Below are positions 29,150 to 49,867 of a stretch of DNA of 64,000 nucleotides, piece by piece. The DNA is from Neobacillus dielmonensis (GTDB lineage: Bacteria > Bacillota > Bacilli > Bacillales > Cytobacillaceae): positions 1-64,000 of the forward strand of contig NZ_HG942046.1 of NCBI RefSeq assembly GCF_000612665.1, in the 5' to 3' direction. The first letter of the stretch is position 1, and each line of letters begins with the position of its first letter. Both the position numbers and the translations under genes were made by a program. The notes beneath the pieces were generated by a model. The model was not told the origin of the DNA and did no database searches. It saw only the letters and a list, made by a program, of their open reading frames with translations.

Positions 29150-30058
29150 ATGGATAGAATCCTGAAAGAATTGCAGGAATTAAATATTGGGAAAGTAAAG
29201 CAAAATGAACCGTTGAGTTCTCATACAACCATTAAAATAGGCGGTCCTGCCGACATTTTTGTTGAACCATCATCCATTGAAAATTTAAAAAAGGTCATGA
29301 ATGTGATCAATAGGAACCAAGTAGATTGGCGGGCAATTGGCCGGGGTTCAAATCTTTTAGTATCCGATAAGGGAATTGATGGGGTTGTAATTAAACTTGG
29401 TTCGGGTATCAATCATCTGGATATATCAGAAACGAAAATTACTGTGGGTGGAGGCCATTCATTGGTCAGTTTATCTACACAGATTAGCAAGAAGGGGCTC
29501 TCGGGTCTGGAATTCGCCAGTGGTATTCCCGGTTCTGTAGGCGGCGCTGTCTATATGAACGCTGGAGCTCATGGTTCAGATATCAGCAAAATTTTAGCCA
29601 AGGCTCACATTTTGTTTAAAGATGGTACCATGGCATGGCTTACGAATGAGGAAATGGAGTTTTCCTACAGAACATCCATCTTGCAGAAAAAACGGCCGGG
29701 AATTGTGCTGGAAGCTGTGTTTGAGCTTACACAGGGAAACAGAGAAAGCATTGTTGAACAAATGCAGAAAAATAAAGACTATCGAAAAGAAACCCAGCCC
29801 TGGAATTATCCATGTGCAGGAAGTATATTTCGTAATCCACTTCCTAATTATGCAGGTAGACTGATTGAACAAGCTGGATTAAAAGGCTTCAGTATTGGCG
29901 GAGCAAAGATTTCCGAAATGCATGGCAATTTCATCGTGAATGCTGGAAATGCCACCGCTGATGATGTTCTTGCTTTAATCAATCATGTAAAAGAAACGAT
30001 TTATAACCTGTACCATGTAACCATGGAAACAGAAGTGGAGATTATCGGCAGAAAATAA
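29150..30058 (+). CDS. murB: UDP-N-acetylenolpyruvoylglucosamine reductase MurB
   Basis: FAD-dependent enzyme completing UDP-MurNAc. The 302-residue type IIa-like form shows [11 protein letters not shown] (about 24), [10 protein letters not shown] (about 65), the FAD-binding [18 protein letters not shown] (about 127-144), CAGSIFRNP (catalytic Ser region, about 222) and the final METEVEIIG. The ATG at 29150 is preceded by GGGTGG; an in-frame TTG lies four codons upstream. Confidence 0.96.
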
Positions 30059-30121: not shown

Positions 30122-30130
30122 TGTTATAAT
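30122..30130 (+). promoter_or_regulatory. Extended -10 promoter upstream of divIB
   Basis: TGTTATAAT, an exact TGnTATAAT extended -10 element. A -35 is poor (TTACGA, 16 bp upstream), as is usual when the -10 is extended. A transcript would start near 30137 and carry about 140 nt of structured leader before divIB. Confidence 0.6.
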
Positions 30131-30160
30131 AATCGATAATATTATAGGTTGAAATTTAGT

Positions 30161-30225
30161 AGAAAATGAAAGACGGCATGATTTTTCATGCCGTTGTTTT
30201 CTCTTCTTGGGCCGGAAAACAACGG
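30161..30225 (+). promoter_or_regulatory. Alternative-hairpin leader of divIB (candidate attenuator)
   Basis: Segment 1 (30161-30181) pairs with segment 2 (30186-30202): inner stem ACGGCATGA/TCATGCCGT with loop TTTT, outer stem AGAAAA/TTTTCT, followed by CTTCTT, a terminator-like fold. Segment 2 also pairs perfectly over 11 bp with segment 3 (30215-30225): CCGTTGTTTTC/GAAAACAACGG. The two folds share bases 30191-30201 and exclude each other. A further small stem TTAGG/CCTAA (30226-30241) follows. This 1:2 versus 2:3 layout is that of an attenuator; the ligand or trigger is unknown. Confidence 0.6.
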
Positions 30226-30278
30226 TTAGGGACAAGCCTAAGCAAATGAGCAGCTGCTTTTTATTTGGGGGAATAAGA

Positions 30279-31070
30279 ATGGAGAAAAGTAAAATCGTTG
30301 CTCTTGAAGACCGTATACCAAAATTAAAGGAGCAGAGACGAAAGAAAGCAAACAAGCGGCTTATCATTTTGTTGTTTTTATTTTTTGTGATGATTGCAGT
30401 CATTGCCTATACTCAATCACCATTAAGTCATATAAAAAAAATTGCTGTTACTGGAAATCATGTATATTCCCAAGAGGAGATTATTAGCAAGTCTGGACTT
30501 TTAAAGGACACGAATATTTGGGAAGTAAAAAAAGCGGATATTAAAGCCAAAGTAAAAAAATTATCCGAAATAAAAAGTGCTGATGTCAAGATACAGTTGC
30601 CGAATAAGGTTCTCATAAAGGTTAATGAATACAATAGAATTGCTTATATGAAGCAGGATCGTTTTTATTTTCCTGTGATGGAGAATGGCAAAATTTTAAC
30701 GGCGAAAAAACTTGAACAGGCTCCAGATAATGCTCCGATTTTATTTGGCTTTGAGGAAGGGGATATCCTTAATGAAATGGTACATGAATTGGAAAGCCTT
30801 CCGACTGCTATTCTGAATTCCATCTCAGAAATACACCATACTCCTAAAAAGACTGACCAGTATCATGTGTCGTTGTATATGAATGATGGATTTGAAGTAA
30901 GTGCGACAATCAGGAGTTTCTCAGAAAAAATGGTCCATTACCCTTCCATTATTAGCCAATTGGACCCCAATAAAAAGGGGATCATTGATTTGGAAGTAGG
31001 ATCTTATTTTAAGGCCTTTGAAACGGAAGTGGAGGAAAAAGAGGTTGAAAATGATGAAGGTGAAGGGTAA
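30279..31070 (+). CDS. divIB: Cell division protein DivIB (FtsQ family)
   Basis: 263-residue bitopic divisome protein: basic cytoplasmic tail (1-25, EQRRKKANKR), transmembrane helix (about 26-46), POTRA domain (about 50-118, beginning SHIKKIAVTGNHVYSQEEI) and beta domain, with an acidic C-terminal tail. It forms the DivIB-DivIC-FtsL complex. The ATG at 30279 follows TTGGGGG and gives the B. subtilis length; 24 upstream codons are rejected. Overlaps ylxW by 20 nt. Confidence 0.94.
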   Translation: MEKSKIVALEDRIPKLKEQRRKKANKRLIILLFLFFVMIAVIAYTQSPLSHIKKIAVTGNHVYSQEEIISKSGLLKDTNIWEVKKADIKAKVKKLSEIKSADVKIQLPNKVLIKVNEYNRIAYMKQDRFYFPVMENGKILTAKKLEQAPDNAPILFGFEEGDILNEMVHELESLPTAILNSISEIHHTPKKTDQYHVSLYMNDGFEVSATIRSFSEKMVHYPSIISQLDPNKKGIIDLEVGSYFKAFETEVEEKEVENDEGEG

Positions 31071-36691: not shown

Positions 36692-37411
36692 ATGAAAAAT
36701 TGGAGACTTCGCTTATCCTACTACTGGAATAAATTATTAATAAAATTAGGTTTTAAAACAGATGAAGTCTTTTATATTGGTGGAAGCGAAGCCCTGCCGC
36801 CTCCTTTGAGTAAGGACGAGGAGGAAATGCTGTTAAAAAAACTACCTGGAGGCGATAAAGCAGCACGTTCTATATTAATTGAACGTAATCTCCGATTAGT
36901 CGTGTATATAGCCCGAAAATTTGAAAATACAGGTATTAATATTGAGGACTTGATTAGTATTGGAACCATTGGTTTAATCAAAGCGGTAAATACCTTTAAT
37001 CCTGAGAAGAAAATTAAACTGGCTACATATGCATCAAGATGTATTGAAAATGAAATTCTTATGTACTTAAGGAGAAATAATAAAATTAGGTCCGAGGTGT
37101 CGTTTGATGAACCGTTAAATATCGATTGGGACGGAAATGAATTGTTATTATCGGATGTGTTGGGAACAGATGATGATATTATTACCAAAGACCTGGAAGC
37201 AAATGTCGATCGCAAATTGCTAACTAAAGCTTTGCACCAGCTTTCAGATCGAGAGAAGCAAATCATGGAGCTTCGATTTGGTCTGACCAACGGAGAAGAA
37301 AAAACACAAAAAGATGTAGCTGATATGCTAGGGATTTCCCAATCCTATATTTCTCGTTTAGAAAAACGAATCATTAAACGGTTAAGAAAAGAGTTCAATA
37401 AAATGGTTTAG
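36692..37411 (+). CDS. sigE: RNA polymerase sigma factor sigma-E (pro-form)
   Basis: 239-residue mother-cell sigma factor. The amphipathic pro-sequence (about 1-29, ending near [15 protein letters not shown]) is removed by SpoIIGA. Region 2 contains [26 protein letters not shown], with the -10 recognition helix following, and region 4 ends in [19 protein letters not shown]. Length equals that of B. subtilis. AGAAGGAGG precedes the ATG. Confidence 0.97.
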
Positions 37412-37475
37412 GTGGAAAAAATTTACCGTAATAAAACCCTTATGACTCCGAAGGTTTAACTGGTTTTTCGAACGT

Positions 37476-37513
37476 ATGCACCTGTCTTAAGCACATGACA
37501 GGTGCATATTTTT
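37476..37513 (+). terminator. Hairpin terminator between sigE and sigG
   Basis: ATGCACCTGTC / GACAGGTGCAT, 11 bp perfect, followed by ATTTTTCC. It should limit readthrough from spoIIGA-sigE into sigG, keeping sigG for its later promoter. Confidence 0.85.
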
Positions 37514-37566
37514 CCTCCTCAAGGAGATACTGTTTTTTGTACAGCAGCTCTCTCGAGGAGGGAAAA
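37504..37566 (+). promoter_or_regulatory. sigG leader: anti-Shine-Dalgarno hairpin and weak sigma-F-like promoter
   Basis: CCTCCTC (37514-37520) can pair with GAGGAGG (37555-37561), extended by TTTT/AAAA across one bulged G, which would bury the sigG ribosome site. Within the same interval GCATA (37504-37508) and GGAGATACT (37523-37531) resemble the sigma-F -35/-10 elements, but with a 14-bp spacer that is somewhat short. A transcript from that promoter would start downstream of the anti-SD and so be free of the hairpin; a readthrough transcript would contain it. Confidence 0.55.
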
Positions 37567-37569
37567 GAT

Positions 37570-38349
37570 TTGACTCGAAATAAAGTAGAAATTTGCGGTG
37601 TAGACACTTCAAAACTTCCTGTATTAAAAAACGAAGAAATGAGAATACTCTTCAAACAAATGCAAGAAGGCGATTTATCTGCCAGAGAAAAACTCGTAAA
37701 CGGAAACTTACGTCTTGTTTTAAGTGTAATCCAGCGGTTTAATAACCGTGGCGAGTTTGTTGATGACCTGTTTCAGGTTGGCTGTATTGGACTCATGAAA
37801 TCAATTGATAATTTTGATTTGGGACAAAATGTAAAGTTTTCAACCTATGCTGTGCCAATGATTATTGGTGAAATCAGGCGTTATTTGCGCGATAATAACC
37901 CGATTCGGGTATCGCGCTCCTTAAGAGATATTGCCTATAAGGCACTTCAGGTGAGGGAGCGCTTAATGAGTGAAACCTCTCGTGAACCGACTGCAGAGGA
38001 AATTGCCAAGGTATTGGAAGTTCCTCATGAGGAAATAGTGTTCGCACTTGATGCAATACAAGATCCAGTGTCACTGTTTGAACCGATCTATAATGATGGC
38101 GGCGACCCCATATATGTGATGGACCAATTAAGTGACGAGAAAAATAAAGATATCAACTGGATTGAAGAAATTGCTTTAAAAGAAGGAATGCGCCGATTAA
38201 ATGAGCGGGAAAAATTAATTTTACGAAAGCGCTTCTTTCAAGGAAAGACTCAAATGGAAGTTGCAGAGGAAATTGGAATTTCCCAGGCACAAGTCTCTCG
38301 TTTAGAGAAAGCCGCTATCCGGCAAATGAATAAAAATATCCAGAGTTAA
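37570..38349 (+). CDS. sigG: RNA polymerase sigma factor sigma-G
   Basis: 259-residue late forespore sigma factor. The N-terminus (RNKVEICGVDTSKLPVL) is characteristic and holds residues that matter for anti-sigma control. Region 2 has NLRLVLSVIQRFNNRGEFVDDLFQVG, region 3 PIRVSRSLRDIAYKAL and region 4 ends EEIGISQAQVSRLEK. The start is TTG at 37570, preceded by GAGGAGGG with 7-nt spacing; 25 upstream codons lie in the leader. A TTG start together with a sequestered ribosome site suggests deliberately weak translation. Confidence 0.96.
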   Translation: MTRNKVEICGVDTSKLPVLKNEEMRILFKQMQEGDLSAREKLVNGNLRLVLSVIQRFNNRGEFVDDLFQVGCIGLMKSIDNFDLGQNVKFSTYAVPMIIGEIRRYLRDNNPIRVSRSLRDIAYKALQVRERLMSETSREPTAEEIAKVLEVPHEEIVFALDAIQDPVSLFEPIYNDGGDPIYVMDQLSDEKNKDINWIEEIALKEGMRRLNEREKLILRKRFFQGKTQMEVAEEIGISQAQVSRLEKAAIRQMNKNIQS

Positions 38350-42450: not shown

Positions 42451-42726
42451 ACAAGTATTAATGAATAGTTTTTGACGATGACAGGGACAGTACGATCCTT
42501 TTAAGCTTTTAAGAAGCGATCCGGAGAGGGTGAAAGTCCGGAAAAGCTGTAGGATCAGAAAATCACCCTCGAGTTCTAAGGACGAACTTCTTTTAGGATA
42601 GTAGACTTTAGCGTCTTTTTCACGTTACGAAGCATGAGCGGATAGAACGGTGAGTTCTGTCTATCAGGGTGGTACCGCGGGAATAAACCTTCTCGTCCCT
42701 TTTGGGGATGGGAGGGTTTTTTTATT
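42451..42726 (+). promoter_or_regulatory. T-box riboswitch for isoleucine (ileS leader)
   Basis: Contains the T-box sequence AGGGTGGTACCGCGG (42666-42680) that pairs with uncharged tRNA's CCA end. Stem I has the GGAGAGGGTGAAAG distal element and a specifier loop in which ATC (42562-42564) is followed by ACC, so the decoded tRNA is tRNA-Ile. The terminator AACCTTCTCGTCCC / GGGATGGGAGGGTT with a T-tract ends at 42723. Uncharged tRNA-Ile should stabilise the antiterminator and switch on ileS. Confidence 0.95.
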
Positions 42727-47480: not shown

Positions 47481-47498
47481 AACAATAGTTTAATAAGC

Positions 47499-47608
47499 CT
47501 TTAAATCAGTCCCGTGAGGCTGAGAAGGAACGGATAACAGGTGTTTATCATGCCTGTAATTTAAAATTACCTATTCCCTCTCACCCATATCGGATGAGAG
47601 GTTTTTTA
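47499..47608 (+). promoter_or_regulatory. PyrR attenuator 1 (pyrR leader)
   Basis: PyrR binding loop CAGTCCCGTGAGGCTGAGAAGG (about 47507-47528) in the anti-antiterminator, then an antiterminator region and the terminator CCTCTCA / TGAGAGG with TTTTTTA (47577-47607). With UMP or UTP, PyrR holds the first stem and termination follows. The loop reads GTCCCGTGAGGCT, a variant of the usual GTCCAGAGAGGCT. Confidence 0.9.
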
Positions 47609-47617
47609 TTTTATCTG

Positions 47618-48236
<619 letters not shown>

Positions 48237-48243
48237 ATAATCG

Positions 48244-48343
48244 CCCTTTTAATTCAGTCCTGAGAGTCTGACAAAGGGGGAATTGCTATTAGGCATTCTC
48301 TAACCCTCTTTGTATCTCTATGGACAAAGAGGGTTATTTTTTT
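48244..48343 (+). promoter_or_regulatory. PyrR attenuator 2 (pyrR-pyrP spacer)
   Basis: CCCTTTT...CAGTCCTGAGAGTCTG...AAAGGGGG (48244-48280) forms the PyrR-binding stem-loop. The terminator has a perfect 13-bp stem TAACCCTCTTTGT / ACAAAGAGGGTTA followed by TTTTTTT (48301-48343). The loop GTCCTGAGAGTCT differs from both other copies. Confidence 0.92.
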
Positions 48344-49706: not shown

Positions 49707-49712
49707 CCAGCA

Positions 49713-49840
49713 AAACCTTTTAAATGAAGTCCAGAGAGGCTTATAAGGGTGTTAGCTTAGAACGGGATGAAAATTCACTATTTTTTCTCCAGTTAAGCAG
49801 ATGTTAAAGCACCCTGACAAAGCGTTAGGGTGCTTTTTTT
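49713..49840 (+). promoter_or_regulatory. PyrR attenuator 3 (pyrP-pyrB spacer)
   Basis: ACCTTTTAAATGAAGTCCAG continues into AGAGGCTTATAAGGGT (49715-49750), with the textbook loop GTCCAGAGAGGCT. The terminator is AAAGCACCCT / AGGGTGCTTT plus TTTT (49806-49840). Confidence 0.94.
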
Positions 49841-49867
49841 AGCCAAATTAAGAAGGGTGGAATTCAC

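Follow-up and report, generated by a model that had tools for sequence, protein, structure and literature searches.

The spacer between murB and divIB in the DNA analysed here raises the question of whether the leader of a cell-division gene carries an RNA switch and, if it does not, which of its elements are likely to matter. DivIB is a core protein of the divisome, and little was found in the literature on the control of its transcription. A sequence-only reading of this leader had described an extended -10 promoter followed by three RNA segments, of which the second would pair either with the first, as a terminator-like hairpin, or with the third. The outcome is divided: a promoter and a terminator-like hairpin ahead of divIB are conserved, while the three-segment switch is not borne out.

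Promoter and hairpin in the window

The window is the whole stretch of 64,000 nucleotides that was analysed, and murB, divIB and the leader features between them lie on its forward (+) strand. The upstream gene murB (29150-30058) was delimited as an open reading frame from an internal ATG and carries the Pfam domains MurB_C (1.5e-35) and FAD_binding_4; divIB, also called ftsQ (30279-31070), was likewise read from an internal ATG and carries POTRA_1 (4.1e-19) and FtsQ_DivIB_C (6.9e-13). Promoter, hairpin and segment 3 are all located in the spacer between the murB stop at 30058 and the divIB ATG at 30279, and a ribosome-binding site, TGGGGGA, was recognised by eye at 30266-30272. Directly 5' of this site stands a GCARCTGCTTTTTATTTGG-like stretch (30250-30267) that, by eye and among the leaders listed, recurs in part of the genus. 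The genus of the window (g1) comprises 61 genomes, of which the closest by MurB (G015) is 86% identical; a second MurB-like gene, 41% identical, is situated elsewhere in four genomes of the genus (G010, G015, G027 and G048).

The extended -10 motif is present as TGTTATAAT at 30122-30130 and would place a transcript start near 30137, an approximate position derived from the -10 only. A consensus promoter scan of the window did not list this divIB-leader promoter because its -35 is poor, and the promoter claim therefore rests on the extended -10.

The first two segments do form the terminator-like hairpin that had been described. Terminator scan and folding both point to a core GACGGCATGA-TTTT-TCATGCCGTT at 30172-30195, with a stem of 10 pairs (30172-30181/30186-30195) and a UUUU loop, and the probability of this pairing in the window is 1.000 at seven transcript lengths. 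The region 30155-30230 folds with a z-score of -3.98 and none of 200 dinucleotide shuffles folded as well, so that the fold is not a product of chance. In the lower stem, the A-rich 5' flank (30162-30171) is predicted by folding to pair partly with the U-tract.

The arrangement is that of an intrinsic terminator, a G+C-containing hairpin followed by a U-rich tract, and it resembles the NusG-dependent terminators of B. subtilis, whose marks according to the main text of PMC8060035 are TTNTTT, terminal A-U/G-U pairs and interruptions of the distal U-tract. In the window, the tract TTGTTTT (30194-30200) holds TTNTTT at 30194-30199 with its first two T inside the stem base, that base consists of an A-U followed by a G-U pair, and the distal tail TTGTTTTCTCTTC is interrupted. 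Unlike the terminators as described in that text, which names neither divIB nor murB, the divIB hairpin lies about 41 nt below a promoter motif within a leader and is conserved in many families.

No Rfam family reached its gathering score in the divIB leader, where six weak matches at E <= 10 were returned, and a known Rfam leader RNA was rejected on that basis. The best sub-threshold match was L20_leader (RF00558), which scored 20.7 bits (E 0.06) where 58.7 is the gathering score, and it is the terminator part that aligns. Elsewhere in the window, a T-box leader and three PyrR binding sites at gathering scores (42469-42703; 47494-47610; 48242-48342; 49712-49842) are ordinary. A perfect 11-nt inverted repeat (37475-37508) marks the junction of the open reading frames 36692-37411 and 37495-38349, both sigma-factor-like; in the B. 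cereus group, a terminator between sigE and sigG is among the predictions given in the text of PMC3762067.

Conservation across the family, the order and beyond

The family sample consisted of the murB-divIB spacers of 60 other genomes of the genus and of 60 genomes chosen among the 132 remaining in the family. Within it, TGNTATAAT occurs in 120 of 121 spacers with the window counted (the exception being L120), and the looser TGNTA[TC]A[AC]T in 119 of 120 with the window excluded, compared with 3.5 in shuffles. The hairpin core was recovered by one regular expression in 109 of the 120 spacers. Among the 11 that it missed, inspection by eye revealed clear variants in L048, L103 and L152, another hairpin instead in L106 and L124, and no hairpin in L136, L148 and L151.

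For the order, a MurB search of 150 genomes yielded a match at E <= 1e-100 in 99. The family itself accounted for 5 of them, and 80 of the other 94 regions were taken. The 14 omitted were mostly the weakest matches, and the sample does not extend to the 51 genomes without a match at this threshold. As the query was MurB only, this other-family sample is unbiased by selection for the hairpin. A divIB gene lies downstream in 79 of the 80 regions. TGNTANAAT was present in 64 of the 80, and TGNTA[TC]A[AC]T in 66 of 79 spacers, drawn from 31 families, against 1.8 in shuffles. The core hairpin CGGCA..TGCCG was found in 38 of the 80 regions and in 17 of 31 families; with the window's own family included, the core letters are kept in 18 families while loop and flanks vary. 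In f44, which we take from its DivIB start to be the family of B. subtilis, all four spacers of the sample have the core hairpin.

The -10 motif precedes the hairpin by a median of 41 nt (5-95% range 27-47; 129 leaders). Two families were seen to be arranged otherwise: in f29 the spacers L381, L382 and L384 carry the core hairpin after murB and the extended -10 motif is absent from the spacer, so that in this family the terminator may precede the promoter, and in f21 (L361, L370 and L371) a strong terminator, judged by eye, stands right behind murB with the extended -10 several hundred bases further on.

A terminator-like score was also computed irrespective of the core letters, from a stem and T-rich tail within 160 nt of the -10, and each spacer was compared with 60 shuffles of itself (P <= 0.05). 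It was significant in 107 of 119 family spacers. Among other-family spacers, it was significant in 30 of the 36 that contain GGCATG or CGGCA, the core word, and in 10 of 30 leaders that have the promoter but lack this word, where 1.5 would be expected by chance; the remaining 12, 6 and 20, respectively, had no significant score. Among the coreless hairpins, those of L310, L316 and L340 look unrelated to the core, and those of L319, L321, L373 and L374 may be diverged forms. Judged from these comparisons of sequence, the promoter is conserved best, the terminator second and the letters of the terminator last.

The U-tract is itself a conserved feature. TTNTTT follows immediately upon TGCCG in 93 of the 109 family hairpins, the other 16 differing, and the column entropies of the tract (columns 35-39: 0.00, 0.78, 0.60, 0.55 and 0.35) are lower than those of its 5' partners (1.00, 1.40, 0.90, 1.19 and 1.83). 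The U-tract is thus better conserved than the A-rich bases with which it pairs, as is expected if the tract acts during transcription, and we regard this as more telling than covariation. Near the loop the 3' arm is more variable (columns 27-28), mostly by G-U/A-U exchange.

Covariation was assessed on an alignment of 74 rows, preselected by GGC...TGCC, from which 16 of 90 references had been dropped to limit redundancy. Of its cells, 88.7% pair. Two-sided change was seen at 8 of the 15 pairs of the extended stem (shuffled mean 4.3; slid versions 4-7), and the covariation score was 0.171 against 0.148 +/- 0.007 in shuffled and 0.070-0.108 in slid versions. Cells with two-sided change numbered 17 compared with 8.3 in shuffles, which is no excess over the 17-39 of slid versions. 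Four core pairs are invariant and a fifth departs once, so that they are uninformative on covariation either way, and the lower stem pairs less regularly among relatives. RNAalifold alone gave 9 pairs, 2 of them with two-sided change. Covariation of the stem would accordingly be called modest, given that the rows were preselected and that kinship alone can exceed shuffles without any structure.

Wider searches were less specific. A pattern scan for the core plus TTGTTT over 84,980 species genomes returned 102 loci, of which 80 have a divIB homologue in the same stretch; the other 22 (16 in other phyla and 5 in Bacillota, one of these Caenibacillus) are read as chance matches. The covariance model R1 matched 42 of 150 genomes of the order at E <= 0.01, and among 30 of these loci (L255-L284) a divIB homologue adjoins 13, the window's own included, and is not found beside 17. 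At the level of the class it matched 24 of 200 genomes at E <= 0.003, with a divIB homologue at 2 of 20 new loci. Since R1 is unspecific outside the family, the claims on range rest on the MurB-based sample.

Probable partial termination and competing explanations

The NusG-type marks, together with a promoter motif a median of 41 nt upstream, are most simply read as a partial terminator. We consider it reasonably probable that the leader holds a promoter-proximal, partial and probably NusG/NusA-stimulated intrinsic terminator that limits transcription of divIB, where we infer the activity, the termination, its partial character and the role of NusG/NusA. RNA polymerase would start near 30137, make about 65 nt and pause on the TTGTTT tract, whereupon the CGGCAT/ATGCCG hairpin would close through its weak A-U/G-U base and the polymerase would be released at 30202-30204, some 7-9 nt below the stem. 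Polymerases that read past this point would go on to transcribe divIB and the genes after it. Polymerases arriving from murB would meet the same hairpin, so that read-through from the mur genes may also be throttled, and it would probably be NusG and NusA, not a competing RNA fold, that tune the set point. Any such termination cannot be complete, because PMC1925097 assigns murB and divIB of B. subtilis to a single operon, and PMC6827917 describes a SigM promoter within murG that helps to drive murB-divIB-...-ftsZ. In B. anthracis, RNA-seq showed unbroken coverage and no start between murB and ftsQ, as related in the text of PMC3762067. These findings count against the terminator reading, as do a stem core more invariant than a plain terminator requires, the leaders with no significant terminator score, the modest covariation and the greater variability of the 3' arm near the loop.

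A bare terminator at this boundary is not new, since it can be gathered from the text of PMC3762067 that one had been predicted between murB and ftsQ (divIB) for the Bacillus cereus group; for B. mycoides, that paper also reports cDNA ends within the ftsQ leader. It concerns the same gene boundary and is used there as a mark between mur and fts genes, in the passages concerned without comparison between families; the 11-nt inverted repeat described there lies near -27 to -53 of ftsQ and hence need not be the same hairpin. Beyond that paper, a promoter-terminator module of likely NusG type was not found in the main texts of the open-licence literature, among the matches listed.

The hairpin could instead be an insulator of the mur operon, ending transcripts derived from the mur genes, with its position after the promoter incidental or the promoter weak. 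We hold this to be possible but unlikely. The predicted B. mycoides terminators, which in the text of PMC3762067 fall between mur and fts genes and inside neither group, would suit it, as would the three f29 spacers with a hairpin and no extended -10. The spacing argues the other way: in 138 leaders with both elements the -10 keeps a distance of close to 41 nt from the hairpin that follows (CV 0.32, with four outliers beyond 60), compared with a longer-tailed distance from the murB stop to the -10 (CV 0.68), an argument that is weak since the MAD is 2.0 for both distances.

That the constant letters are themselves recognised is a further proposal, in which a putative protein would bind RNA or DNA at the CGGCAT/ATGCCG core and would be required for termination or blocking; we judge it distinctly unlikely. 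The constancy of the core in 18 families amid changing loop and flanks speaks for it, as does a second conserved word downstream, GGACARGC. Several observations weigh on the other side: 10 of the 30 coreless other-family leaders have another significant terminator-like hairpin, the loop varies in length, as DNA operators do not usually do, the alignment of 74 rows had been preselected for the core, and R1 finds a single place in the window genome at E <= 0.01.

The downstream word is a conserved directional motif, which in the window stands as GGACAAGC at 30230-30237. Counting by groups (genera within the family, families outside it) and dropping 3 spacers with fewer than 30 nt remaining, no 8-mer in the part of the leader below the hairpin is as widespread as GGACAAGC, which is present in 11 of 51 groups compared with 9 for ribosome-binding 8-mers; in 20 mononucleotide shuffles it appeared in 0-1 groups and the best 8-mer in 6-8. 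It occurs in sense orientation in 47 of 196 spacers and in antisense in 0, the figures becoming 88 and 7 when one mismatch is allowed. Several genera carry GGACARGC in the divIB leader, as do some other families, and among 23 listed contexts from outside the genus there are 16 in which 29-56 nt separate it from the preceding hairpin. Two structural roles were rejected for it: as the loop of a stem, it had 39 flanking pairs against 33.7 +/- 7.1 (P 0.25; 53 sites), and as the partner of TTGTTT, it is kept, by eye, where the tract is TTCTCTT (L099 and L100).

A protein-read control of the divisome in at least 18 families, where a putative factor would read the hairpin, and the same factor or a partner would also bind GGACARGC, is quite unlikely in our estimate; if true, it would tie the supply of DivIB to the state of the cell wall or of growth, since transcripts would be terminated after about 65 nt. 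We regard as very improbable a small RNA gene, some 65 nt long with its end at the hairpin and its action elsewhere. The suitable spacing of the promoter-like and terminator-like ends would fit it; against it, the stretch between -10 and hairpin looks, by eye, unconserved outside close relatives.

The alternative fold and the sense of the leader

The complementarity on which the switch was founded is real: CCGTTGTTTTC (30191-30201) is the exact reverse complement of segment 3, GAAAACAACGG (30215-30225), over 11 bp, and when the downstream stretch was shuffled 20000 times a run of this length came up in 5. Over its full length, the window contains 8 perfect inverted repeats with arms of at least 11 and loops of 3-30, compared with 0-2 in 10 block shuffles. 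As a conserved device, however, the switch is rejected by a run test over 104 spacers with a recognisable 3' arm, the window included, and by the fold probabilities. The longest downstream Watson-Crick run averages 4.62 against 4.66 when shuffled, P <= 0.05 is reached in the window only, the nearest relative (L003) has 4 bp, and none of the 103 relatives has a run comparable to the 11 bp of the window. Duplex energies give a mean z of +0.22 and fall below -2 in 3 of 104 spacers, the window (-3.05), L008 (-2.49) and L112 (-2.27), the latter two having runs of only 5 and 4 bp and z values at about chance level for 104 tests. Covariation in both stems, which had been named as a check, yields modest compensatory change in one of them and no counterpart of segment 3 in relatives.

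The probability of the alternative fold is at most 0.015 over the seven transcript lengths and 0.002 in the full leader. Segment 3 is moreover transcribed after the U-tract (30194-30208) and cannot prevent termination there, and no U-tract follows the hairpin of segments 2 and 3. With two-fold attenuators and riboswitch expression platforms the divIB leader shares a terminator-like hairpin in a 5' leader; a conserved competing fold was not found in it. The competing segment is not made before the terminator is complete, and no conserved mutually exclusive pairing was detected upstream or downstream, an upstream antiterminator giving no general signal in 129 leaders (5' arm, mean z -0.04 with 6 below -2; 3' arm, mean z +0.12 with 4 below -2). 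A switch of segments 1/2 against 2/3 is consequently the least credible explanation, exceedingly improbable in our view. The alternative fold, observed in a single species, is probably incidental, and the most plausible origin of segment 3 is a recent inverted duplication within one lineage, perhaps by template switching.

That many families have retained, ahead of the first division gene after murB, a promoter followed at about 40 nt by a terminator suggests that transcription into the division genes is limited at this point, and hairpin, U-tract and NusG, whose role we infer, would offer a simple regulatory knob for it.
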